Below, piece after piece: positions 49,434-63,834 of a stretch of DNA of 64,000 nt (the stretch's first letter is position 1; each line of letters begins with the position of its first letter). A program made the translations under genes and the position numbers. Location of the stretch: positions 62,001-126,000 of the forward strand of contig CANGJM010000008.1 in assembly GCA_947454525.1 (NCBI GenBank), read 5' to 3'. The notes beneath the pieces are model-generated. The model did not search any database, was not told the DNA's origin, and saw nothing but the letters and a program-made list of their open reading frames with translations. This stretch comes from Flavobacteriales bacterium (lineage in GTDB: Bacteria > Bacteroidota > Bacteroidia > Flavobacteriales_D > Crocinitomicaceae).

Positions 49434-50447
49434 ATGAAAAAAATGTTTACTTTTTTAGCTACAGTATTTATTAGTGTAGCGTCTTACGCGCAGTTCCCTG
49501 CGGTAGGTATTATCGGATCTGCGGTTCCACCTTACGATTGGTCTGTGGATATCCCGATGCAAACCTTAGATGGAAACATCTATGCTGGTGTTGTTACATG
49601 TGTTGCTGGTGAAGCGAAATTTCGCCAAGATGCAGCATGGACTATTAACTGGGGTGCAGCAACTTTTCCAGCTGGATTAGGAGTGCAAGACGGAGCAAAT
49701 ATCCCTGTAACTGCAGGAACGTATTTGGTTGTTTTTGACCGCACATCTGGTGCTTACCAATTCATGACAGATTACACTGTAACTTACCAAGTGGATATTA
49801 CTGGTTATTTAGCAGGTGGAGCAACATTGAATGCAAACGGTATCCGCGTTGGTGGAAACTTTGCTGATTTCGGTGCTTCTGTAGCTGCAGGTGCAATGGT
49901 TAACTGGTCTCCGTCTGATGCTAATTCAGCAATGACAGACTTAGGAAACAACATCTGGTCAATCGACGTAACGTATCCAGTTGCTTCTTTACAAGCGACA
50001 CAAATCTACAAATTTGTGAACGGTGATTGGGGAACAAACGAAGGTACTGATGCTGCTAACACAATTGCTGTTGATGGTTGTGGAACTGATGATGGTTCTG
50101 GAAACATTAACCGTAACTACTTGTTGTTGCCAGGAACTGTATGTTATGTTTGGGATGCATGTACTGCATGTGGTGGATCTAACGTTGCTGAAAACGTGAT
50201 CAACAACTTGACAGTTTCTCCAAACCCAACAGCTGATGTTGCTAACTTCAAATTTGATGTAAACAATGCATCTGAAGCGACAATCACATTATTTGATTTA
50301 ACTGGAAAAGAAGTTGCTACGAAAACTATCGCAGTTTCTGCTTCTAACAATGTTGAAGTAAATACAGCGAACTTGTCTGCTGGATCTTACATTTACAAAG
50401 TTTTTGCTGGTGACAAAGTTGCTACAGGAAAATTGATCAAACAATAA
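49434..50447 (+). CDS. SusE/SusF-like starch-binding protein with T9SS type A tail
   Basis: A 337-residue exported protein. The signal peptide is MKKMFTFLATVFISVASYAQ. Two beta-sandwich domains follow: about 23-115 (GIIGSAVPPYDWSVDIPMQ, EAKFRQDAAWTINWGAATFP, GTYLVVFDRTSGAYQF), as in SusE/SusF-type outer-membrane starch-binding modules, and about 120-245 (NIWSIDVTYPVASLQATQIYKFVNGDWGTNEG), which is CBM-like. The last ~75 residues are a T9SS type A domain (LTVSPNPTADVANFKF, LFDLTGKEV, SGSYIYKV-type). Unlike Bacteroides SusE/F it is not a lipoprotein, so it is displayed through T9SS. It probably binds starch at the surface. A terminator follows directly. Confidence 0.82.
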   Translation: MKKMFTFLATVFISVASYAQFPAVGIIGSAVPPYDWSVDIPMQTLDGNIYAGVVTCVAGEAKFRQDAAWTINWGAATFPAGLGVQDGANIPVTAGTYLVVFDRTSGAYQFMTDYTVTYQVDITGYLAGGATLNANGIRVGGNFADFGASVAAGAMVNWSPSDANSAMTDLGNNIWSIDVTYPVASLQATQIYKFVNGDWGTNEGTDAANTIAVDGCGTDDGSGNINRNYLLLPGTVCYVWDACTACGGSNVAENVINNLTVSPNPTADVANFKFDVNNASEATITLFDLTGKEVATKTIAVSASNNVEVNTANLSAGSYIYKVFAGDKVATGKLIKQ

Positions 50448-50467
50448 TTTTTCAATTATTTATTGAG

Positions 50468-50500
50468 AGCCTAAGTTGAAAGATACTTAGGCTTTTTTTT
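50468..50500 (+). terminator. Intrinsic terminator after the SusE/F-like gene
   Basis: AGCCTAAGT pairs with ACTTAGGCT (nine pairs) around an eight-base loop, then eight T. The amylase gene starts 17 bases later with no promoter box in between, so this is likely a partial terminator that makes the binding protein the most abundant product. Confidence 0.85.
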
Positions 50501-50517: not shown

Positions 50518-53301
50518 ATGAAACATGTCATCCTTACCGTAGTTGCTAGCATCTATAGTTCAATGCTCATCGCACAAGTTTTAGACGTTTCCCCAGCTTT
50601 TCCAACCGTTAACGATGTGGTCACCATCACGTATGATGCCACTCAAGGAAATGGAGCGCTGATTGGTCAGTCTCAAATTTATGCCCATGCAGGATTAATT
50701 ACGAGTGCAAGCACCTCGCCATCAAATTGGCAATACGTACAGGGGACTTGGGGAACAGTTGATCCTCAAGTGGCAATGACAAACATTGGAAATAATAAAC
50801 ATACGATTACGATCGATATTGATCAGTTCTACGGGTATCCACTCGCAACAACGACCGTACTCAAACTTGCTTTTGTTTTTCGAACAGCAAACGGTAACAT
50901 CGTTGGACGTGCAGCAGATGGAGGAGATATTTTTTACGATGTATATCCTGTGAATGCTGGATTACTCGGACAATTTTTCCACCCGAATAATGGAAGTATT
51001 TACAACCTTAATGATCAAATCGCTATAAATGCTGAGGCAAATACAAGTTCCACGCTGTCTTTAAAAGAAGATGGAAACGTTTTGACTACCTTAACAAATG
51101 CAACAACCTTAAATTATACTTTAACAGCAAGTTCTGCAGGAACGCATTTGTTGGAGTTTGAGGTAAATGATGGAACAACAACCATCATTGATAGCACATA
51201 CTACACAGTTAATCCTGTAGTGAATATTGTCAATCCAACAATTTCTGGATTGGTGAATGGTGTAAATTACATCAACGATACAACGGTTATTTTTCAATTA
51301 TACGCACCACAAAAACAACATGTTTATGTGATTGGTGGTTTCAATAACTGGACACCTACTGCTGTTTATCACATGAATTTGTCCACGAACAATGCAACAT
51401 GGTGGCTTGAAGTCACAGGGCTTACCGCTGGACAAAAATATGGCTATCAATATTTTATCGATGGCACCATGAAATTCGCAGATCCATTGAGTAGTCTGAT
51501 TTTAGATCCAAATAACGATGGCAACATCAATGCAGCAACAAACCCCAATCCGCTTCCTTATCCTACTGGACAAACAACCGGATTTGTTTCTGTTTTTCAA
51601 CCAGGGGCTACTCCGTACGATTGGCAAAATACAAGTTTCCAAGGTCCGGCGAAAAAGGATTTAGTTATTTACGAATTGTTGGTGCGTGATTTTGTGGCGA
51701 AACACAATTATCAAACATTAATCGATACACTTGCTTACCTCGATAAGCTTGGAATCAATGCGATCGAATTAATGCCTCCGGGAGAATTCGAAAACAATGA
51801 AAGTTGGGGATACAATCCATCCTTTCATAAGGCACTAGATAAATACTACGGCACTCCAGAAAAGTTCAAAGAATTCGTAGACAGTTGCCATAACCGCGGC
51901 ATTGCCGTTATTGTTGACATGGTATTAAATCATGCCTTCGGACAAAATCCAATGGTGAATATGTATTGGGATGCAGCGAATAATCGTCCAGCAGCCAATA
52001 ATCCTTGGTTCAATGCGATTTGTCCACACGAACCATACTGTTGGGGTTATGACTTCGACCATACGAGACAGGCTACACAAATGTACATCGATCAAGTCAA
52101 TAAGTTTTGGCTCGACGAATACCATGTAGATGGATTCCGTTTCGACTACACAAAAGGATTTACAAATTCTGCGGCATCCTACAGTTTAGAGCGAATCAAT
52201 ATTCTTAAAAGAATGGCGGATAAGATTTGGGATGTGAAATCAAACGCATATGTAATATTGGAACACTGGTGCGATAACTCGGAAGAAATTCAATTGGCTA
52301 ATTACGGCATGATGCTATGGGGGAATCTGACCAATGCATATGAAGAGGCAGGAATGGGTTACACAAGTTCCTCCAACATTAGTTCAGGTATTTATTCCAA
52401 TCGTACGTGGACAGTACCTCATTTGGTAACGTACATGGAAAGCCATGATGAAGAACGCATGATGTACAAAAATTTGACATTTGGTAACGCGACGAATCCA
52501 AATCATAATGCGAAAAACTCCTATGTTGCTTTGGGACGAATGCAAACAGCGGCCGTAATTTTCCTAACTCAACCAGGCCCAAGAATGATTTGGCAATTTG
52601 GTGAATTGGGATATGATATTTCCATTGAGAGTCCATGTCGTGTGTGTAATAAACCAATACTTTGGAATTATTATACTCAGGCAAGAAGACGTCAATTGTA
52701 TGACGTGTATGCTGCAACTTTAAAGTTGAGAAATGATTATGAAACATTTCGTTCATTGAATTTTACTTACAATTTAAGCGGAGCAGTGAAAAAAATGAAA
52801 TTGACAGATCCATCGATGAACGGGGTTGTGATCACCAATTTTGCTGTAACTTCTCAAAATGGATCCCCAAATTTTCACCATAATGGATGGTGGTACGAAT
52901 ATTTCACTGGAGACAGTTTAAATGTAACCGATGTCAATATGAATTTCTCTCTTGAGCCTGGAGAATACCGAATTTATACGGATGTCCGTTTGGATCAACC
53001 CTTAATAACGGATGCACCAATGTCAATAGACGAGGTGATGGAATCACATTTCCCTATGAGCGTTTTTCCAAATCCAAGTGTGAGTAATTTACACGTTGTC
53101 TTCAGTGCAAAGGATATGAATGCCATGGAATTAAAGGTGCTGAACGAAGCTGGACAAGTAGTTTATTCGGAAAAGGGAACAACGAATCCGGGTAAAAATG
53201 AGGTGCTTCTGAATGTGAGTGATTGGAAAAGTGGTTCTTACCATGTGCTTCTTCGTGTAGGTCAATTCTATTCGAATGAAGGATTTATTATTGTGCATTA
53301 A
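50518..53301 (+). CDS. Secreted GH13 alpha-amylase-family enzyme with CBM48-like domain and T9SS type A tail
   Basis: A 927-residue extracellular glycoside hydrolase. Signal peptide ends near residue 19 (LIAQ). N-terminal starch-binding-like beta domain (about 20-145), an Ig-like domain (about 150-235) and a CBM48/E-set domain (about 255-335, VIGGFNNWTP, YGYQYFIDG) come before the GH13 barrel (about 380-780). Catalytic residues are intact: region I DMVLNH (D467, H472), nucleophile D543 in DGFRFD, acid E582 in ILEHW, and D644 in SHDEE. The T9SS type A tail (VFPNPSVSNLHV, VLNEAGQVVY) fills the last ~80 residues. It likely cleaves starch or glycogen at the surface. TAATG overlap couples it to the CotH gene. 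Confidence 0.92.
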   Translation: MKHVILTVVASIYSSMLIAQVLDVSPAFPTVNDVVTITYDATQGNGALIGQSQIYAHAGLITSASTSPSNWQYVQGTWGTVDPQVAMTNIGNNKHTITIDIDQFYGYPLATTTVLKLAFVFRTANGNIVGRAADGGDIFYDVYPVNAGLLGQFFHPNNGSIYNLNDQIAINAEANTSSTLSLKEDGNVLTTLTNATTLNYTLTASSAGTHLLEFEVNDGTTTIIDSTYYTVNPVVNIVNPTISGLVNGVNYINDTTVIFQLYAPQKQHVYVIGGFNNWTPTAVYHMNLSTNNATWWLEVTGLTAGQKYGYQYFIDGTMKFADPLSSLILDPNNDGNINAATNPNPLPYPTGQTTGFVSVFQPGATPYDWQNTSFQGPAKKDLVIYELLVRDFVAKHNYQTLIDTLAYLDKLGINAIELMPPGEFENNESWGYNPSFHKALDKYYGTPEKFKEFVDSCHNRGIAVIVDMVLNHAFGQNPMVNMYWDAANNRPAANNPWFNAICPHEPYCWGYDFDHTRQATQMYIDQVNKFWLDEYHVDGFRFDYTKGFTNSAASYSLERINILKRMADKIWDVKSNAYVILEHWCDNSEEIQLANYGMMLWGNLTNAYEEAGMGYTSSSNISSGIYSNRTWTVPHLVTYMESHDEERMMYKNLTFGNATNPNHNAKNSYVALGRMQTAAVIFLTQPGPRMIWQFGELGYDISIESPCRVCNKPILWNYYTQARRRQLYDVYAATLKLRNDYETFRSLNFTYNLSGAVKKMKLTDPSMNGVVITNFAVTSQNGSPNFHHNGWWYEYFTGDSLNVTDVNMNFSLEPGEYRIYTDVRLDQPLITDAPMSIDEVMESHFPMSVFPNPSVSNLHVVFSAKDMNAMELKVLNEAGQVVYSEKGTTNPGKNEVLLNVSDWKSGSYHVLLRVGQFYSNEGFIIVH

Positions 53302-54722
53302 TGAAGTCCTTTTTTCTTTTCATTCTTTGTGTCCTCATGGAATTGAGTGTCAAAGCTCAATTCGTACATCCTCCCAATAACAACGCCTTCCTTCAGTATG
53401 AAGTGGCTAGCGTTTATGTTACCATGTCCGCAGTCGATGCGCAAATGATGGTAGCTGATAGCGTTTATTCCGATTACCCCTTTGTTGCTTCGGTCATTTA
53501 TTCCTCCAGTGCTGTTCAAGACACCTTGACGAATGTTGGAATACATGTTCGTGGAAATACGTCAAGGGATGCAGCGAAAAAGTCCTTTGAATTGTCATTC
53601 AATAGCTATGTTCCAGGTAGAAAATACCGTGGATTAGAGAAAATGAAGTTGAATGGAGAACATAACGATGTTTCCATTTTACGTTCGAAAGTCTCCTGTG
53701 ATTTATTGACGGCATGCGGACTTCCATCTCCTAGATCCAGTTACGTGAAGTTATACATCAACAATGAATACAAAGGATTGTATATCCACATCGAACATTT
53801 TGATGAGGAATTTATTCAAAAAAGATTTCCAAACGACAATACGGGCAACCTCTTTAAATGTTTTTATGGCTCTGATTTAACCTATCACGGAACGAATCCA
53901 ACGTATTACGAAAACACCTACAAATTGAAAACGAATGAGGCGGTGAATGATTATTCAGGACTGATTCATTTGATTGAGGTTTTGTACAATTCCGCAAACG
54001 CCAATTTTGTTTGTGAAATACAGGATGTTTTCGACGTGGATACGTATTTGCGCACACTTGCGGTGGAAATATTGATTGGACAATGGGACGGATATGCCTA
54101 CAACAAAAACAACTATTTTCTATACGAACGTCCTTCGGATGGTAAGTTCATCTTCATGGAATACGATCTAGACAATACCTTCGGAATCGATTGGTTCAAT
54201 GTCAATTGGTCCACACGCAACATTTACACTTGGGCGAATGCCAATCGACCACTCTATTCAAAATTATTGGCAGTTCCTTATTTCAAGGACCGATTTAATT
54301 ACCACATGAAGGACATTCTAACGAATTATTTCCTTCCTTCAACGTTGTTGGGAAGCCTTCAAGCAAAACAAAATTTAATCGCGAATGCAGCGTTGCTCGA
54401 TGACTACAAAGGCTACGATTATGGATTTACAGATCAAGATTTCTTGGATGCCATCGATCAAGCATGGGGATTTCACGTCACACAATCGATTAGTGAATAC
54501 ATTCAAAGCCGATATAGTTCAGCTAACACTCAAGTATTGGCCTTCCAAAACATTCAGAATCCATGTACATCAGGATTGGAAGAATTTGCGTCTGAAAATG
54601 CGCTTAAAGCGATAAAGGCAGTAGATGTATTGGGTAGAGAAATACCATTGAACACGAAAAATTGCATCAAAATAGTGAGCTATGAAAATGGCTCGGTTAA
54701 ACAACTTTATGAATATGAATAA
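53301..54722 (+). CDS. CotH-family kinase protein, exported, within the starch locus
   Basis: A 473-residue protein with a signal peptide (MKSFFLFILCVLMELSVKAQ) and a CotH kinase domain (about 60-400). Recognisable parts are VGIHVRGNTSRDAAKKSFEL, KMKLNGEHNDVSILRSKVS, YKGLYIHIEHFDEEFI and the metal-binding MEYDLDNTFGIDWF. CotH proteins are atypical protein kinases first known from spore coats. The C-terminus (KAVDVLGREIPLNTKN, ending VKQLYEYE) resembles a short T9SS-type tail. It is coupled to both neighbours: its ATG overlaps the amylase stop by one base, and its stop lies within the start region of the next amylase. The role in starch use is unknown; phosphorylation of surface proteins of the locus is one possibility. 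Confidence 0.87.
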   Translation: MKSFFLFILCVLMELSVKAQFVHPPNNNAFLQYEVASVYVTMSAVDAQMMVADSVYSDYPFVASVIYSSSAVQDTLTNVGIHVRGNTSRDAAKKSFELSFNSYVPGRKYRGLEKMKLNGEHNDVSILRSKVSCDLLTACGLPSPRSSYVKLYINNEYKGLYIHIEHFDEEFIQKRFPNDNTGNLFKCFYGSDLTYHGTNPTYYENTYKLKTNEAVNDYSGLIHLIEVLYNSANANFVCEIQDVFDVDTYLRTLAVEILIGQWDGYAYNKNNYFLYERPSDGKFIFMEYDLDNTFGIDWFNVNWSTRNIYTWANANRPLYSKLLAVPYFKDRFNYHMKDILTNYFLPSTLLGSLQAKQNLIANAALLDDYKGYDYGFTDQDFLDAIDQAWGFHVTQSISEYIQSRYSSANTQVLAFQNIQNPCTSGLEEFASENALKAIKAVDVLGREIPLNTKNCIKIVSYENGSVKQLYEYE

Positions 54723-56613
54723 GGGTTACTTTTTATCAATTGTCCTGTTTTGTGTCCTTCAATCGAATGCACAAATCTTAACACATGTAGAACCAGCAAA
54801 TTGGTGGGCTGGAATGGAACACCATGAAGTGCAAATCTTGTTACATGGAAACAATATCGCCAACTATCAAGTGCAGGTTTCAGGATTAGCAATCACGGGA
54901 ATCGTGAAGACAGAAAATCCGAATTATTTGTTCGTGACTGTTGAAACGAAAGATAAAGTTGCCGGTACCTATCCGATTAAACTCATCGACAAGAAAAAAG
55001 AAATCACCCATTTTGACTTCAAGTTAGAAGAACGGATGAGCAATAGTGCGCAACGTGAAAGTTATACTTCCGCGGATGTCGTTTACCTCTTAATGCCAGA
55101 TCGTTTTGCGAATGCCAACGAAGGATTAGATACGCATCCGGACACAAAAGAAGTAGCAGATCGTTCGAATCCTGGTGGACGTCACGGGGGAGACATCATG
55201 GGAATTATTCAACATTTAAATTACATCAAAGAACTTGGTGCAACAGCCATTTGGACAACACCGATGTTAGAGGATAACGAGGAGACCTATTCGTACCATG
55301 GATATGCACAATCCGATTTGTATAAAATCGACCCGCGTTATGGAACAAATTCCTGGTACAAAGAAATGGTGCTTGAAGCACATCGTCAAGGATTAAAAGT
55401 GATCAAAGACGAAGTACCGAATCACTGGTCCAGTAAACATTGGATGATTAAAGATTTACCATCGCAAGACTGGATTCATCAATTCCCTGCGTTTACACGT
55501 TCGAGTTACCGTACAAGTACACAAATGGATCCACATGCCTCGCAAAAGGATAAAGGTGCATCAGAGGATGGTTGGTTCGACACAACGATGCCGGATATGA
55601 ATCAATCCAATCCACTTTTGTTAACCTACTTGATACAAAATACCATTTGGTGGATTGAATATGCGCAATTAGATGGACTTCGTGTGGATACGTATTCCTA
55701 TAACGATAAAGAAGCCATTTCTGTTTGGACAAAAGCAATCACAGATGAATATCCACGCTTGAACATCATGGGCGAAGTGTGGATGCATAATCAAGCACAA
55801 ATGTCCTATTGGCAAAAAGATAGTCCCGTTGGAGCGATTGACTCGTACAACAGTTACCTTCCAACGGTGATGGATTTTACGATGCACGATGCGTTCATGC
55901 AGGCCTTCAATGAAACGAAACAAGATTGGGACAAAGGAATGGTCCGCTTTTACGACAATGTTGCCAACGATTTTCTGTACAAAGATCCGTCCAACTTGCT
56001 CGTGTTTTTTGAAAATCATGACACGAAACGTTTCAATGAATATTGTCCGAATATTGCGGACTATAAATTAGCACTGACCCTCATTTCTACAACTCGTGGA
56101 ATTCCACAGATTTATTATGGTTCTGAAATTGGAATGAAAGGAAGCAAAGATGTTGGTGATGCAGACATCCGTAGAGACTTTCCAGGTGGATGGGCTGCTG
56201 ATCGTCATACCGCATTTTGTAGCAGCGAAGATTCGAAATGCCATGCATATCAAACTGGACGCACAGCAGAGGAAGAAGCATATTTTCAGTTTACGAAGTC
56301 TTTGTTGAATTGGAGAAAGAACAACAAAATCATTCATGAAGGCAAATTGATGCAGTATGTCCCTGAAAACAACGTGTATGTGTATGCGCGCTACAAGGAG
56401 CCAAATGGCATGTACGATATGCCAGGGAAACAAGTCGTTTTAGTCGTGATCAATAACTCCACCAAGGAGGAAACGATTCGTTGGGACCGTTATCAGGAAA
56501 TGATTCAAGGCAAAGAAACAGGAGTGGATGTACTGACACATCATACGGTAAATTTCGACCTCAAAACAGCGGTCATTCCTGCAAAAACTGCTTACATTCT
56601 AGAACTTAAATAA
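54715..56613 (+). CDS. GH13 cyclomaltodextrinase/neopullulanase, SusA-like, periplasmic
   Basis: A 632-residue enzyme. The start at 54715 gives the signal peptide MNKGYFLSIVLFCVLQSNAQ; the frame is open upstream into the CotH gene (ATGs at 54682 and 54709). The N-terminal domain (about 21-115) matches cyclomaltodextrinase N-domains (HVEPANWWAGMEHHEVQILLHG). The GH13 core has DEVPNHW (region I), nucleophile D325 in DGLRVD, acid E354 in IMGEVW, and D436 in ENHDTK. With no T9SS tail and no lipobox, it should stay in the periplasm and cleave imported maltodextrins, as SusA does. GH31 starts two bases after its stop. Confidence 0.93.
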   Translation: MNKGYFLSIVLFCVLQSNAQILTHVEPANWWAGMEHHEVQILLHGNNIANYQVQVSGLAITGIVKTENPNYLFVTVETKDKVAGTYPIKLIDKKKEITHFDFKLEERMSNSAQRESYTSADVVYLLMPDRFANANEGLDTHPDTKEVADRSNPGGRHGGDIMGIIQHLNYIKELGATAIWTTPMLEDNEETYSYHGYAQSDLYKIDPRYGTNSWYKEMVLEAHRQGLKVIKDEVPNHWSSKHWMIKDLPSQDWIHQFPAFTRSSYRTSTQMDPHASQKDKGASEDGWFDTTMPDMNQSNPLLLTYLIQNTIWWIEYAQLDGLRVDTYSYNDKEAISVWTKAITDEYPRLNIMGEVWMHNQAQMSYWQKDSPVGAIDSYNSYLPTVMDFTMHDAFMQAFNETKQDWDKGMVRFYDNVANDFLYKDPSNLLVFFENHDTKRFNEYCPNIADYKLALTLISTTRGIPQIYYGSEIGMKGSKDVGDADIRRDFPGGWAADRHTAFCSSEDSKCHAYQTGRTAEEEAYFQFTKSLLNWRKNNKIIHEGKLMQYVPENNVYVYARYKEPNGMYDMPGKQVVLVVINNSTKEETIRWDRYQEMIQGKETGVDVLTHHTVNFDLKTAVIPAKTAYILELK

Positions 56614-56615
56614 AG

Positions 56616-59096
56616 ATGAAAAACCTCATTTTATTTCTTTTTGTTTCTACACTTAGTTGGGGACAAAATGCCACTCGACAATTTGTCTCCGTAGAAAAAT
56701 CCACAAAGGGGTACAAAGTAGTTGTTTCCGATGGTGTGTATTATTTTTCCGCATATTCTGGGAAAATGGTTGAAACGACTTTCATTCCAAACGGACAAAA
56801 GCATCCTGTGAATTCTCATGCAGTGGTGGCTTCGGTTGCAACAGACATGCTTCAGTTAAGTCAATCGACAGGTGTCGTTCGTTTAACAACGACTGCTGGA
56901 TTAACCGTGAACATTCAACAAAAACCATTTCAGATCTCTTATTGGCACCATGACAAACCGGTGATTTCGGAAAACTGGGGATATGAAAAAGCGGAAGATT
57001 CAGAGAAAATTCATTTCAACTTAACAACGGACGAGATGCTGTATGGTGCTGGTGCACGCGCATTAGGAATGAATCGTCGTGGATACCGCTTGCAACTTTA
57101 TAACCGTGCGCATTACGGTTACGAAGAACATTCGGAGCTTATGAATTACACCATGCCAATGGTCGTTTCGAATAAATGTTATGCCATTCATTTCGATAAT
57201 GCGCAGATTGGCTATTTGGATTTAGATTCTAAAAAGAACAATGTGTTGACCTATGAAACGATCGGTGGACGCAAAACCTATCAAGTCATAGTTGGGGATG
57301 ATTGGAAAGACCTCCTTTCAGAATACACGAACTTAACCGGACATCAACCGATGCCGCCGCGTTGGGTATTTGGGAATTTCGCGAGTCGTTTTGGCTATCA
57401 TTCTGAGGCAGAAGCACGAAATGTCGTCAATCAGTTTCGAAAAGACTCCATTCCATTGGACGCCATCATCTTCGATCTATATTGGTTTGGAAAAGAAATT
57501 CAAGGAACACTAGGGAATTTATCCTTTTACACGGACTCTTTTCCGCATCCAAAAGAAATGATCAATGACTTCAAAAATCAAGGTGTGAAGACTGTCCTGA
57601 TTACGGAACCGTTTATTCTCACAACCTCGAAAAAATGGCAGGAAGTCAGTGATAAAAAATTAGTAGGAACGAATGAAGCAGGAGCTCCTTTTACCTACGA
57701 TTTCTATTTCGGAAATACCGGATTACTAGACTTGTTTAAACCAGAAGCACGAACTTGGTTTTGGGACATTTACAAAGATTTACATAGCTATGGAGCACGT
57801 GGTTTCTGGGGAGACTTGGGAGAACCAGAGGTACATCCAGCCAAATTAAAGCATGCAGTTGGGTACGCGGATGAGGTGCACAACATTTACGGACATGAAT
57901 GGGCAAAACTTATTTACGAGGGATACCAGAAAGATTATCCCAATGAGCGTCCATTTATTTTGATGCGTTCCGGAAGTACAGGAACACAGCGTTTCGGGAT
58001 CATTCCATGGTCCGGTGATGTGAACCGTACGTGGGGTGGATTGCGCCCACAAATGGAAATTACGTTGCAAATGGGACTACAAGGAATCGCTTACATGCAT
58101 TCTGACCTTGGTGGATTCGGAGGACCGAACGACGATCCGGAGTTGTATGTGCGTTGGTTGCAGTATGGCGTTTTTCAACCGGTTTTTCGTCCACACGGAC
58201 AAGAAGAAGTACCGAGCGAAGCCATATTCAAAGACGAGAAAACAAAACAACTTGCGAAAGAAGCGATTGAGTTACGTTATCAACTTTTACCTTACAATTA
58301 TTCATTGGCATTTGAAAACCATGTAAATGGAACGCCGTTAATGCGACCAATTTTCATGGAGGATTCAAGTGCACATTGGTCTGATTCATTGGCAACAGAA
58401 TACATGTGGGGGAGTTGTTTCTTGGTGAAGCCCATTACAGAAAAAGATAATCACCAAATCGATTCTTTTCCGACATATTTAGTAAAAGCACCATGTGGGA
58501 CCTGGTACAACTTTCATACTGGTGAGCTTATGAATCCCTCGAAGCCATCGAGATTAACAAATCCATCGAAGCCATCGAGATTAACATTTGTTCCTGATTC
58601 AGAATTAAAGAAGACAGGACAATTATGCACAGAAGGACTGCAAACGTTCTTTTCCTACAGTGGCCTAGATAATATTGCTGTCTTGGTAAAAGGAGGATCT
58701 TTTGTTCCGATGTCCCCAATCATTCAAACAACCGAGTCTTATTCGGATACAATGGTGACGATTCACTACTACGATGCACTTGAACTAACAGAGAGCAAAG
58801 GAATTTGGTACGAAGATGATGGCTTAACGAATGAAGCCTACGAAAAAGGAGCGTATAAATTGCTTCAAATGAGCATGTTCCAGAAAGCAAAAAAAACGAA
58901 GCTTTCCTTCGATCCGAACTACGGTACAAAAATGCTGAAACATGGCTTTGTATTTGGTGTGGAGATTCATTCTGCCCGCATCCCAAAAAGTATTTCTGTG
59001 AATGGAAAGAAAATGAAATTCGAAGTTGTTGACCAAAAAATCAAGCTACGAATGACTTTAACAGAAGAAGTTCAAAACATTCAATTGAATTGGTGA
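56616..59096 (+). CDS. GH31 alpha-glucosidase
   Basis: An 826-residue periplasmic glycosidase that releases glucose from the non-reducing end of maltodextrins. Signal peptide ends near residue 17 (SWGQ). The N-terminal beta-sandwich has YGAGARALGMNRRGYRLQLYNR. The (beta/alpha)8 core has IIFDLYWFG, nucleophile D400 in FWGDLGEPE, and acid/base D468 in WSGDVNRTW; GIAYMHSDLGGFGG is typical of GH31. Near residues 640-657 it contains a nine-residue tandem duplication (NPSKPSRLT twice), discussed separately. GH31 stands in for the GH97 enzyme SusB of Bacteroides. Confidence 0.94.
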   Translation: MKNLILFLFVSTLSWGQNATRQFVSVEKSTKGYKVVVSDGVYYFSAYSGKMVETTFIPNGQKHPVNSHAVVASVATDMLQLSQSTGVVRLTTTAGLTVNIQQKPFQISYWHHDKPVISENWGYEKAEDSEKIHFNLTTDEMLYGAGARALGMNRRGYRLQLYNRAHYGYEEHSELMNYTMPMVVSNKCYAIHFDNAQIGYLDLDSKKNNVLTYETIGGRKTYQVIVGDDWKDLLSEYTNLTGHQPMPPRWVFGNFASRFGYHSEAEARNVVNQFRKDSIPLDAIIFDLYWFGKEIQGTLGNLSFYTDSFPHPKEMINDFKNQGVKTVLITEPFILTTSKKWQEVSDKKLVGTNEAGAPFTYDFYFGNTGLLDLFKPEARTWFWDIYKDLHSYGARGFWGDLGEPEVHPAKLKHAVGYADEVHNIYGHEWAKLIYEGYQKDYPNERPFILMRSGSTGTQRFGIIPWSGDVNRTWGGLRPQMEITLQMGLQGIAYMHSDLGGFGGPNDDPELYVRWLQYGVFQPVFRPHGQEEVPSEAIFKDEKTKQLAKEAIELRYQLLPYNYSLAFENHVNGTPLMRPIFMEDSSAHWSDSLATEYMWGSCFLVKPITEKDNHQIDSFPTYLVKAPCGTWYNFHTGELMNPSKPSRLTNPSKPSRLTFVPDSELKKTGQLCTEGLQTFFSYSGLDNIAVLVKGGSFVPMSPIIQTTESYSDTMVTIHYYDALELTESKGIWYEDDGLTNEAYEKGAYKLLQMSMFQKAKKTKLSFDPNYGTKMLKHGFVFGVEIHSARIPKSISVNGKKMKFEVVDQKIKLRMTLTEEVQNIQLNW
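58533..58586 (+). repeat. 27-base in-frame tandem duplication in the GH31 gene
   Basis: Copies 58533-58559 and 58560-58586 differ at one base (C/A at the sixth position) and encode NPSKPSRLT twice. The near identity marks a recent duplication at the junction of the barrel and the C-terminal beta domain. Confidence 0.95.
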
Positions 59097-59108
59097 TAAA
59101 AATCTATG

Positions 59109-59126
59109 TGTCAACTTGACATTAAG
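59109..59126. promoter_or_regulatory. Palindromic element shared with the SusE/F-like gene, copy 2
   Basis: TGTCAA-C-TTGACA is a perfect 13-base palindrome followed by TTAAG. Its TTG (59116-59118) doubles as the -33 element of the susC promoter. Confidence 0.65.
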
Positions 59127-59146
59127 GAAAATAAAAAATATATTTG
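59116..59146 (+). promoter_or_regulatory. susC promoter
   Basis: TTG at 59116-59118, a 20-base spacer, then TATATTTG (59139-59146), a full TAnnTTTG match, 39 bases before the susC ATG. It gives susCD its own transcript in addition to read-through from upstream. Confidence 0.65.
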
Positions 59147-59185: not shown

Positions 59186-62100
59186 ATGGTTCAAAAAATT
59201 ACACGAACTTTTGCTGTTTTTGCCAGTTTCATGCTTGTTTCAATTGTTTCTTTTGCTCAAAATGCAAGTGTAAAAGGGATGATTAACGATGCTGAAGGAA
59301 AGGCATTGTATAACGCATCGGTTACAGTAGAGGGTAAGTCCAAAGGCGCTATGTCCAATGATAAAGGTTTCTACGAAATCAAAGGATTGACAGCTGGAAG
59401 CTACACCTTAATTTACCGCTTCATGGGAATGGAGACGATTAAAGAAACAGTTGTTTTACAAGAGAATCAAGCTTTAATTAAAGACGTTACCTTACAATCG
59501 AAAGCGAAAGATGAGGATGAAGTAGTCGTAATTGGTTACGGAACCTCTCGAACGAAAGATTTAACAGGATCAGCAACAGTTATTAATGAAAAGAACTTTC
59601 TTCAAGGTTCTCTTTCCACACCCGAACAGTTAATCATGGGTAAAGTGGCTGGATTAAAAGTAACATCGAACGATGGGGCTCCAGGTTCTGGTAGTACCTT
59701 GCGTTTGCGTGGTGGAACTTCCATCAACGCTAGTAATGATCCATTAATCGTTGTCGATGGAGTACCTTTAGATAACGGAGGAATTGCAGGTGTTGCAAAT
59801 CCACTTTCACTGATCAATCCAAACGACATCGCTTCATTCGTAGTTCTAAAAGATGCGTCAGCAACGGCAATCTACGGTTCACGTGCAGCGAATGGTGTCA
59901 TCATCATCACAACCAAAAAAGGTGATGGTGGTAAAAATGCTCCATTGAAAATTGTTTTGGACACGAAGATTTCTCAATCAACAATCGCGAAGTACGCAGA
60001 TGTATTAAGTGGTGATTCCCTTCGTTCCCTTGTGAATGCAAGAGGAACAGCTGCTCAAAAAGCGCTTTTAGGTGATTCAAGTACAGATTGGCAAAAACAA
60101 GTTTTTCGCAATGCAATTGTGTTAGATAACAACTTGTCTATCACAGGTGGAATCAAGAATTTCCCTTACCGTTTGTCAATTGGTAACAGAAATGAAAATG
60201 GAATCTTAAAAAGAGACCAATTCAGTCGTACTTCCCTTGGATTGAACATGAGTCCTTCATTTTTGAAAAACACCTTGTTGTTAGAGTCAAACTTGAAATA
60301 CATTCAAACAAGTTCTTTCTTTGCCAACCGTGGTGCATTAGGAGCTGCTTATTTCGATCCAACGCAACCTGTTTATTCTGGAAACGAGAATTACAATGGA
60401 TATTTCGAATGGGTAGATAACAACAAGCCAAATACGCTTTCCGCAAGAAATCCACTCGGATTGATCAATCAAACAGAGGATGTTTCTAAAGTAAATCGTG
60501 CCATTGCCAATGCAAAATTGACGTACAGCCTTCCATTCCTAGAGGGATTGAAAGCGATTGTGAATGTGGGTGGTGACTTCTCAGAAGGTACTGGGCATGT
60601 CATTACGGATTCAAATTCGGCTGCTGGATATTATACACATGGTCGTTATTCAGAGTATTTATCTAGAAAAGAAAACAAATTGATTGAAACGTACGCAACG
60701 TACAATTCAGGAAAACGTTTTGGCGACCATATTTTGGATGTAACTGCTGGTTATTCTTACCAAGATTGGATGAGTAGAGGGCCTAATAATCCAACGTTCA
60801 ATCAAGCGCAAGACTCAATCATTGGAGCGGCTTCTAGTCCATATCCAAATTACACGAAAAACGTGTTATTGTCTTACTACGCTCGTGCAATTTATAGCTA
60901 CAAAGGAAAATACATTGTGAATGCTTCATTACGTCGTGATGGATCATCTCGCTTTAGTCCAGATCAACGTTGGGGATTGTTCCCAGCGGTTTCAGCTGCT
61001 TGGTTATTGACAGAAGAAGATTTCTTGAAAAACTCAAAAGCAATCAATATGTTGAAATTACGTGCTGGTTGGGGTGTAACTGGACAACAAGACGGAATTG
61101 GTGATTATGCATATATCGGAAATTACTTCTTGGGTGCAACAACTGCACAATACGCATTCGGTGGACAATACTACCAAGCTTTGCGTCCAGCTGGATTCGA
61201 TGCCAACTTGAAGTGGGAAACCACTGCTAGTTACAATGTTGGATTGGATTTTGGTTTCAAAAACGACCGCGTTTCCGGAAGCATTGATGTTTACCGCAAA
61301 GAAACAAGTGATTTGTTAGCGACAGTTCCTGTTCCTGCTGGAACAAACTTCACAAACATGATCTTAACCAATGTTGGTGGTATGAGAAACCAAGGTGTTG
61401 AGGTAAGTATGAACACAGGAATCATCGCTAAGAAAAACATGCGTTTGGATTGGTCAATCAATGCTACTTACAACCAAAACAAAGTGACGAAACTTTCACT
61501 AGTTACGGACCCTAAATCACCAGGTGTTTTAGTTGGTGGAATCGGTGGTGGTATCGGTAATACGATTCAAGTTCACCAAGTTGGATATGCAACATTTACA
61601 TACTTCGTTTTAGATCAACAGTATGATGCAAACGGAACGATGATTCAAGTTGGAGAACAAGCGACAATCGACATCAACAATGATGGTGTTATCAATACTT
61701 CTGACAAGTGGAAAGATGTTCATGCATTTAAAGATCTCAATGGAGATGGAATCATCAATGTAGCTGATCGTTACTACGCTGGACAAGCAGCGCCAAAAGT
61801 GTTCTTAGGAACTGCGCTTAATTTCACGTACAAAAAATGGTTTGCTGGATTCTCCATGAGAAGCGAACTTGGTGCAACAATCTACAATAACATACACTCA
61901 AACAGTGCAACGTTCCAAACGATTGATGGTACGAAAAAATACTTGAATAACATCAGTTCATTGTACTACGAAAACGAAGTTCAAAAAACAACAAACAACC
62001 AATTGTTGTCAGATCATTACCTTGAAAAAGCAAACTTTTTACGTATGGATTTCGTGAACTTAGGTTACCACTTTGGTAAATTGAAATTTACGAACAACAA

Positions 62101-62248
62101 ACTTGGATTGAATGCTAGTTTCACAGTTCAAAATGTATTCGTTGTTACGCAATACAAAGGACAAGATCCGGAAGTGAACGGTGGAATTGATAATAATTTC
62201 TACCCGCGTCCACGCATGTACTCATTGAACTTAACATTTGACTTCTAA
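59186..62248 (+). CDS. susC: SusC/RagA-family TonB-dependent outer-membrane transporter
   Basis: A 1020-residue TonB-linked barrel that imports oligosaccharides bound by SusD. Signal peptide ends at about residue 24 (SFAQ). A carboxypeptidase-regulatory-like domain follows (about 28-108, VKGMINDAEGKALYNASVTVEG), then the TonB box region VVVIGYGTSRTKDLTGS, the plug (about 115-230, LRLRGGTSINASNDPLIVVDGVP, IYGSRAANGVIIITTKKG) and a 22-strand barrel ending MYSLNLTFDF. The N-terminus has no extra signalling domain of the FecA type. Substrate is inferred as maltodextrin from the neighbouring enzymes. Confidence 0.95.
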   Translation: MVQKITRTFAVFASFMLVSIVSFAQNASVKGMINDAEGKALYNASVTVEGKSKGAMSNDKGFYEIKGLTAGSYTLIYRFMGMETIKETVVLQENQALIKDVTLQSKAKDEDEVVVIGYGTSRTKDLTGSATVINEKNFLQGSLSTPEQLIMGKVAGLKVTSNDGAPGSGSTLRLRGGTSINASNDPLIVVDGVPLDNGGIAGVANPLSLINPNDIASFVVLKDASATAIYGSRAANGVIIITTKKGDGGKNAPLKIVLDTKISQSTIAKYADVLSGDSLRSLVNARGTAAQKALLGDSSTDWQKQVFRNAIVLDNNLSITGGIKNFPYRLSIGNRNENGILKRDQFSRTSLGLNMSPSFLKNTLLLESNLKYIQTSSFFANRGALGAAYFDPTQPVYSGNENYNGYFEWVDNNKPNTLSARNPLGLINQTEDVSKVNRAIANAKLTYSLPFLEGLKAIVNVGGDFSEGTGHVITDSNSAAGYYTHGRYSEYLSRKENKLIETYATYNSGKRFGDHILDVTAGYSYQDWMSRGPNNPTFNQAQDSIIGAASSPYPNYTKNVLLSYYARAIYSYKGKYIVNASLRRDGSSRFSPDQRWGLFPAVSAAWLLTEEDFLKNSKAINMLKLRAGWGVTGQQDGIGDYAYIGNYFLGATTAQYAFGGQYYQALRPAGFDANLKWETTASYNVGLDFGFKNDRVSGSIDVYRKETSDLLATVPVPAGTNFTNMILTNVGGMRNQGVEVSMNTGIIAKKNMRLDWSINATYNQNKVTKLSLVTDPKSPGVLVGGIGGGIGNTIQVHQVGYATFTYFVLDQQYDANGTMIQVGEQATIDINNDGVINTSDKWKDVHAFKDLNGDGIINVADRYYAGQAAPKVFLGTALNFTYKKWFAGFSMRSELGATIYNNIHSNSATFQTIDGTKKYLNNISSLYYENEVQKTTNNQLLSDHYLEKANFLRMDFVNLGYHFGKLKFTNNKLGLNASFTVQNVFVVTQYKGQDPEVNGGIDNNFYPRPRMYSLNLTFDF

Positions 62249-62259
62249 AAATGATAACC

Positions 62260-63834
62260 ATGAAAAAGATAATCGCTTTTACTTTTATTACTGCTTCCTT
62301 GTTATTGGTGTCATGTAATAAACAATTAAATCAATCGCCTAAATACGGTTTAAATGCCGAGGCAGTTTATAGCAATCCAGATCAATACATCCACGTTTTG
62401 GCGAAATTGTATTCTGGAATGTCCATGACAGGAAATCAAGGTCCAGCTGGATCTGCTGATATCGCTGGAATTGACGAAGGATTCTCTGCATACATTCGTG
62501 TATTGTGGAACCTACAAGAACTTCCAACGGATGAAGCTATTTGTGGTTGGAACGACCCAGGAATTCCAGATTTGAATAAATCTCAATGGAATGCGGATAA
62601 CGTTTGGGTAAAAGGTATGTACTACCGTATTTACTACCAAATCACACTTTGTAATGAGTTTATTTGGCAAGCTCGTGAAGAGAAATTGACTACACGTGGA
62701 TTCTCTGAAGCGAAAATGGCTGAAATTCGCACATTCCGTGAAGAAGCTCGTTTCTTACGCGCGTTGGCTTACTACCATGCAATGGACTTATTCGGTAACG
62801 TACCATTTGTAACGGAAAATGACCGTGTTGGTGCTTTCGAACCAGAACAAATTCTACGTGCTGACTTATTCAACTACATCGAAGATGAATTGAAAGCAGT
62901 GGAAACTGAATTGTTAGATCCAACCGCTGTTCCTTACGGACGTGCATCAAAATCTGCTGCGCAAGCGTTAATGGCAAAAATGTACTTAAATGCGGAAGTG
63001 TATTTAGGTGCTGGAAATGACCGTTATCAGGAATGTGTAGCATACTGTGATAAAGTAATGAATACTGGTGCATTTGCATTGGATGATCATTACCAAGATT
63101 TGTTCTTAGCAGACAACAACACATCTCCTGAAATCATCTTCCCAATCGTTTATGATGGACTTTATTCACAAACTTGGGGTGGAACAACGTTCTTAGTTTG
63201 TGCTTCCTTAGGAGGAAGTATGGTTGCTGCTGATTACGGTGTGAATGGTAAATGGGGTGGACTTCGTGCAACAGCACCGTTCATCGATAAATTTGCAGAC
63301 ACAACTCAAGATACTCGTTGGATGTTCTATACTGATGGACAACAAAAAGAAATCACGAGTATGTCCACGTTTACTCACGGATATGCAAATCCGAAGTTTA
63401 AAAACAAAACGTCTACAGGTGGAAGTGCTTCAAATAACTCAGTTTCACCGCATACGGATATCGATTTCCCGTTATTCCGTTTAGGAGACGTGTATTTGAT
63501 GTATGCTGAAGCGCAATTGCGTTTGGGTAATTCAGCGACTGCCGTTCAATACGTGAATTACATCCGAGAGAGAGGATATGGCAATTCATCGTTCAATGTT
63601 TCAACATTGACCTTAGATGATATCCTTGATGAGCGCGCACGTGAAATGCAATGGGAAGCGACGAGAAGAACAGATTTAATTCGCTTCGGATACTTTACAA
63701 GTGGAAGCTACGTTTGGCCATTCAAAGGTGGAGATGTAGCTGGAGTTGCTGTTCCTTCATACGTGAACTTATACCCGATTCCAACTGCGGATATCGTGTT
63801 AAACAGAAACTTGACCCAAAATACGGGTTATTAA
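62260..63834 (+). CDS. susD: SusD/RagB-family surface glycan-binding lipoprotein
   Basis: A 524-residue lipoprotein with the signal MKKIIAFTFITASLLLVSC and lipidation at C19; the ATG at 62251 three codons earlier is an alternative. The helical TPR-like scaffold has EARFLRALAYYHAMDLFGNVPFV (in two segments), ASKSAAQALMAKMYLNAEVY and the C-terminal RLGDVYLMYAEAQLRLG with DERAREMQWEATRRTDLIRFG, the family signature. It caps SusC and delivers maltodextrin. It is the last gene of the locus; a terminator follows. Confidence 0.95.
   Translation: MKKIIAFTFITASLLLVSCNKQLNQSPKYGLNAEAVYSNPDQYIHVLAKLYSGMSMTGNQGPAGSADIAGIDEGFSAYIRVLWNLQELPTDEAICGWNDPGIPDLNKSQWNADNVWVKGMYYRIYYQITLCNEFIWQAREEKLTTRGFSEAKMAEIRTFREEARFLRALAYYHAMDLFGNVPFVTENDRVGAFEPEQILRADLFNYIEDELKAVETELLDPTAVPYGRASKSAAQALMAKMYLNAEVYLGAGNDRYQECVAYCDKVMNTGAFALDDHYQDLFLADNNTSPEIIFPIVYDGLYSQTWGGTTFLVCASLGGSMVAADYGVNGKWGGLRATAPFIDKFADTTQDTRWMFYTDGQQKEITSMSTFTHGYANPKFKNKTSTGGSASNNSVSPHTDIDFPLFRLGDVYLMYAEAQLRLGNSATAVQYVNYIRERGYGNSSFNVSTLTLDDILDERAREMQWEATRRTDLIRFGYFTSGSYVWPFKGGDVAGVAVPSYVNLYPIPTADIVLNRNLTQNTGY

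Follow-up and report, generated by a model that had tools for sequence, protein, structure and literature searches.

We identified a gene for a CotH-family protein between two amylase genes of a starch locus in the window (the whole 64,000-nucleotide stretch of Flavobacteriales DNA analysed here), and we lean towards reading its product as an exported kinase-fold enzyme that is a conserved accessory of the Sus-like starch system in Crocinitomicaceae and related families of the same order. The reading draws on direct observations of how the genes are ordered, conserved and co-inherited, of a predicted model with a CotH-like fold, of intact catalytic residues and of purifying selection. The first-pass annotation had singled out the gene as the strongest candidate for an undescribed component, and had named CotH-free syntenic loci in relatives or poorly conserved catalytic residues as findings that would count against it. 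Both were checked and the idea withstood them: the synteny in relatives together with the invariant catalytic aspartates supports well that it is a conserved, apparently undescribed part of Sus-like starch loci. All genes of the locus lie on the + strand in the order GH13-CotH-SusA-GH31-SusC-SusD, with an X25-like gene located 5′ of the GH13 gene. The features are as follows.

49434..50447, + strand: X25-like (starch-binding type) secreted protein with a T9SS type A tail (PF18962 44.3 bits; X25 26.5 bits, just below the cut-off of 27)
50465..50496, + strand: terminator-like hairpin with a 12-bp stem and a T tail (pattern match only; total matches of the pattern in the region are not above shuffles)
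50518..53301, + strand: GH13_T9 amylase with a CBM48-like domain and a T9SS type A tail (ORF and domain profiles)
53301..54722, + strand: CotH-family protein, 473 aa (ORF, PF08757, orthologue alignment, structure model)
54087..54191, + strand: putative catalytic core, CotH codons 263-297, with D263 (WDG), N270/N271, D289, D291 and G295
54715..56613, + strand: SusA-type cyclomaltodextrinase/neopullulanase (GH13) with a signal peptide (longest ORF from 54682)
56616..59096, + strand: GH31 alpha-glucosidase (ORF and domain profile)
59116..59146, + strand: Bacteroidota-type promoter-like site before SusC (TTG ... TATATTTG; consensus match only)
59186..62248, + strand: SusC/RagA TonB-linked outer-membrane receptor (TIGR04056, 655 bits)
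62251..63834, + strand: SusD starch-binding lipoprotein (profile search)

The profile search recovered both a SusC/SusD pair and GH13 enzymes, as expected of a Sus-like locus. The best NCBIfam match of the SusD protein was the starch SusD model with 412 bits, below that model's cut-off of 725. The GH13_T9 amylase is composed of Alpha-amylase, CBM48 and Por_Secre_tail domains (the last with 31.9 bits, cut-off 27), and the SusA-type protein of Cyc-maltodext_N, Alpha-amylase and Cyc-maltodext_C domains (profile search). The X25-like gene is the first gene of the locus, and the synteny comparison showed that a similar gene recurs at the starch loci of relatives. Given the hairpin at 50465-50496 and the promoter-like site at 59116, the GH13-CotH-SusA-GH31 genes may form a separate unit between the X25 gene and SusCD. 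The hairpin would give the X25-T9SS gene its own transcript or partial read-through, and the position of the promoter-like site directly 5′ of SusC suggests that SusCD are expressed separately. Another CotH gene, whose product has a genuine T9SS tail, lies ~1.3 kb beyond the window end (L006:3338-5026, − strand, G000:C8), convergent with SusD and followed by genes for CarboxypepD_reg-like and DUF2490-like proteins. An outer-membrane-type gene similar to that of C8, judged by eye, adjoins a CotH paralogue on C18 (L009).

Regarding the junctions of the CotH gene, both overlaps noted in the first-pass annotation are present. The last A of the GH13_T9 stop codon TAA (53299-53301) is also the first base of the CotH ATG at 53301 (TAATG), and the CotH stop codon (54720-54722) overlaps the start region of the SusA-type gene, in which an in-frame ATG is located at 54715 (ATGAATAA) and other in-frame ATGs at 54709, 54688 and 54682. 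However, the co-synthesis in fixed ratio that had been drawn from this arrangement was rejected as unsupported, because the CotH/SusA junction ranges in orthologues from a 34 bp overlap to a 13 bp gap and overlapping genes are frequent in the window, where 5 of the 32 pairs of same-strand neighbours overlap; moreover, an overlap cannot reveal a ratio. The amylase-to-CotH offset varies among orthologues from -3 to +11, and the RNA structure at this first junction was unremarkable (z -1.4). The SusA-GH31 and SusC-SusD pairs are each spaced by 2 bp. The overlaps are ordinary, and it is the operon as a whole, rather than CotH, that is tightly packed. What is conserved is the close packing, not the exact coupling.

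The CotH protein consists of a signal peptide (residues 1-20), a CotH kinase fold (~34-416) and a short beta tail (432-473). The signal peptide had already been proposed; residues 1-20, as read from the sequence, are hydrophobic and end at AQ, and the first helix of the structure model spans residues 2-19. The protein matched PF08757 with 207.6 bits (cut-off 23.8) over profile positions 1-320 of 322, and B. cereus CotH was its sole solved relative by sequence search (E 3e-21). The AlphaFold2 model, built from 36 orthologues (mean pLDDT 89.9), aligned to B. cereus CotH (5JD9) with Z 39.7 and rmsd 2.3 over 347 residues at 26% identity. The next-best folds were PI4K (Z 12.8), CtkA and HipA (near 12) and Fam20 (near 10-11). 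In B. subtilis, CotH with D228Q or D251A is inactive (PMC7821199). B. cereus CotH contains two aspartates 23 residues apart, in NFDGF and PWDYD, which align with D263 and D289 of our protein; these were equated with B. subtilis D228 and D251 by the spacing in the B. cereus sequence, rather than by a direct B. subtilis alignment. By its PF08757 profile match, its predicted fold and its catalytic aspartates, assigned by spacing, the protein is a member of the CotH family.

The catalytic residues are conserved, with the aspartates D263, D289 and D291 invariant in 69 orthologues together with R84-G85-N86-T87-S88, K93, K94, E165, N270 and N271. The dN/dS values among close relatives (0.037-0.085) are in a range like that of SusC, SusD and the amylases. 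On this sequence evidence, the gene is under selection as one encoding an enzyme-like protein. We also weighed a non-catalytic CotH, that is a binding or assembly module that would hold the amylases or SusCD together or bind glucan, and we regard it as possible but doubtful. It would fit the scarcity of ATP expected in the extracellular space. For cellulosome CotHs, a structural role and a regulatory or kinase role have been proposed and the role is not clear (PMC12484212), and the CotH modules of C. thermocellum occur with lamin-tail domains (PMC6083626), an architecture similar to that of the long orthologues described below. However, a pure scaffold has no need of the catalytic aspartates or of the R-G-N-T-S and K-K residues of the N-lobe, and their invariance is evidence against a purely structural CotH. 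Regarding possible substrates, no Ser-rich tract of the CotB/CotG (SKR) type was found in any protein encoded by the locus. A CotB/CotG-like substrate encoded there was rejected for this reason, and a substrate like those of the spore coat is thus not apparent.

The claim of a T9SS-like C-terminal stretch drew weak support. The profile comparison gave a weak similarity (probability 43% over 18 columns), but neither TIGR04183 nor PF18962 matches the tail of the window's CotH, and on the two results together a canonical T9SS tail was rejected for this protein. The T9SS models do match the long CotH orthologues and the C8 paralogue. The short CotH of family f1 is without the lamin-tail region, and its 42-residue beta tail is matched by no T9SS model. 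A secreted protein of 494 aa (L153:1498-2982, − strand, G000:C5) ends in a CotH-like short tail (DLLGRP...YNDGS), and the short tail common to this protein and CotH is possibly a variant of the T9SS sorting signal outside the current models.

We found 12 related loci in public genome contigs, and the gene order amylase, CotH, SusA is the same in all 12. This Crocinitomicaceae starch locus is present, at 90-99% protein identity, on a contig filed under Polynucleobacter meluiroseus (L011, CALQBB020000022.1), which was probably misbinned in the public genome. Across 150 genomes of the family, the CotH orthologue group was defined by E-values (<1e-140 for complete genes, with paralogues at 1e-44 and weaker). 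The window-type SusA was found in 29 of these genomes, and in 25 of the 29 the CotH orthologue lies immediately 5′ of it, in five genera (g1, g11, g15, g16 and g18). CotH and SusA are unlinked in one genome (G052) and three others have SusA without a CotH orthologue (G121, G002 and G036), so CotH is not required for the Sus system. The CotH-SusA-GH31-SusC-SusD order is kept in all five genera wherever the contig is long enough, except for one g1 locus (L063), where GH31 and SusCD are absent after SusA. Three g18 loci (L057, L058 and L060) have a second, more distant CotH gene, divergent and just upstream of the starch-locus CotH. These data bear on the idea that CotH is a passenger inserted by chance into the starch operon and has no function there. 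The adjacent CotH is indeed missing at 4 SusA loci in the family; however, its position is conserved in five genera, the gene is under purifying selection and the active site is invariant. We therefore consider a chance insertion highly improbable; synteny and selection both refute it.

Among the family genera compared, the T9SS amylase is located directly 5′ of CotH only in the window's genus, g1. Elsewhere in the family it is ~21-25 kb off, on another contig or, once, divergent close by. Of the 45 g1 genomes, 31 have CotH together with the T9SS amylase and 14 have neither, with no exception. The pattern is as expected of a cassette, and it suggests that the two genes were gained and lost together.

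At the level of the order (299 genomes), CotH and the amylase occurred together in 117 genomes, CotH only in 16 and the amylase only in 17 among the matches listed. The genome tables, read by hand, gave 125, 8 and 22, respectively; both sets of co-occurrence counts ignore the shared ancestry of the genomes. Among the matches listed, CotH lies within 3 kb of the amylase in at least 61 of the 299 genomes (30 from f1, 26 from f2 and 5 from f58). In f2 and f58, a long CotH (~740 aa) directly precedes the same amylase and SusC/SusD. The locus annotated in detail (L112) contains an NrtR/AraR-type Nudix regulator, the long CotH, the amylase, SusC and SusD in this order, and its CotH combines a CotH domain, a lamin-tail-like region (27.4 bits, cut-off 34.3) and a T9SS tail. 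Homologous genes fill the corresponding positions in several other f2 loci. A Nudix-type regulator gene, with its domains checked in L112 only, precedes the CotH-amylase-SusCD unit in L112, L132, L134, L137, L140 and L150, and it is a candidate sugar-responsive regulator of the f2 locus. Many f2 genomes have CotH and the amylase on different contigs.

A quick tree places the CotHs of the order in a single group with a support of 84, in which 37 of the 44 rows are starch-linked; two distant rows fall outside, and one of these belongs to f59, a family of the same order. The starch label changes 4 times on the tree, versus 24 in shuffles. On this quick-tree support, the link to starch seems to go back to a single old recruitment in the order, followed by rearrangements; this is a reading and not a proof. 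The long CotH subfamily is found across the phylum in 51 of 395 genomes and 35 of 170 genera. Outside the order, no starch genes directly beside CotH were recognised in the loci examined with the queries used, where SusA-like genes of L118 and L151, ~4-7 kb away from CotH, did not count as linked. The proximity of CotH to SusC/SusD and GH13 that the first-pass annotation had proposed to look for across Bacteroidota was found within the order, in three families, but it was not recognised in the loci examined elsewhere in the phylum. The missing starch neighbours outside the order and the separation by contigs in f2 suggest that the core function of CotH may be broader than starch. CotH could even be a general secreted-protein kinase that modifies many exported proteins and is merely kept in the starch operon, the linkage being inherited order. 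The spread of the subfamily over 35 genera would fit this, as would the 5 CotH genes and ~105 T9SS tails of the genome. However, CotH is gained and lost together with the amylase inside g1, and its linkage to starch genes is kept over three families in differing arrangements. We consider a general kinase unlikely.

Returning to the preferred reading, an accessory of the starch system, we infer the enzymatic activity, compartment, target and nucleotide source of CotH. It would be made together with both amylases, the one at the surface and the periplasmic one of the SusA type, and would leave the cytoplasm via its signal peptide. The type IX system may then carry it to the surface, a route that is clear in the long orthologues and would have here a degenerate tail at most. 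The modelled fold and the conserved residues predict a nucleotide-dependent transfer. CotH would most likely pass phosphate (or another nucleotide part) either to the glucan or to part of the starch machinery, and the proteins of that apparatus or the glucan are the likely acceptors. The modification of surface starch-binding proteins suggested in the first-pass annotation is possible. Such a transfer would tune assembly or binding. The donor is the chief problem for this reading. ATP should be scarce outside the cell, where an exported CotH would act, and the cellulosome CotHs face the same problem; the mother cell, in which B. subtilis CotH acts, is rich in ATP. More tentatively, CotH could be a built-in extracytoplasmic phosphotransferase that marks SusCD-associated proteins or alpha-glucan with phosphate or a nucleotide part during starch capture, which might also explain the cellulosome CotHs.

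What is new is the combination, a CotH member inside a Sus-like starch system. The literature search, with most subscription papers outside its reach, recovered no paper with CotH and SusD both as whole words, so the link seems undescribed. It suggests that surface starch use here may include an undescribed phosphotransferase-like step. CotHs recur beside polysaccharide-degrading machines, the bacterial and fungal cellulosomes, where their role is recorded as unclear (PMC12484212), and since the conserved locus is compact and has a single CotH gene, the role can be tested there, given a culturable carrier strain.

Compared with known systems, the window's CotH shares with Bacillus CotH (PDB 5JD9, 5JDA; PF08757) the fold over nearly the whole domain and, by spacing, the catalytic aspartates. 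The neighbours of Bacillus cotH, cotB and cotG, are also its functional partners (PMC7821199). In contrast, the window's CotH is predicted to be exported, has a Gram-negative host, lies in a starch operon instead of a spore-coat cluster and has no Ser/Lys/Arg-rich substrate gene beside it. The cellulosome CotHs (CseP, Cthe_0239, of C. thermocellum, and those of anaerobic fungi) are likewise secreted and tied to polysaccharide breakdown, and some carry lamin-tail domains (PMC6083626), comparable to the lamin-tail-like region of the long orthologues here. They belong, however, to a dockerin-borne complex acting on cellulose in Firmicutes and fungi, whereas ours belongs to a SusCD/T9SS starch system in Bacteroidota. 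The Fam20C-type secretory-pathway kinases show a distant fold similarity (Z ~10-11) at only ~10% identity. They are eukaryotic enzymes of the Golgi, where ATP is supplied, and act on exported proteins or glycans. A control genome, Bacteroides ihuae, gave no match to CotH. The Bacteroides Sus system has in common with our locus the SusA-type amylase, SusC and the starch-type SusD. It has SusB (GH97) where the window locus has GH31, and the window locus differs from it also by the X25-T9SS protein, the T9SS amylase and CotH.
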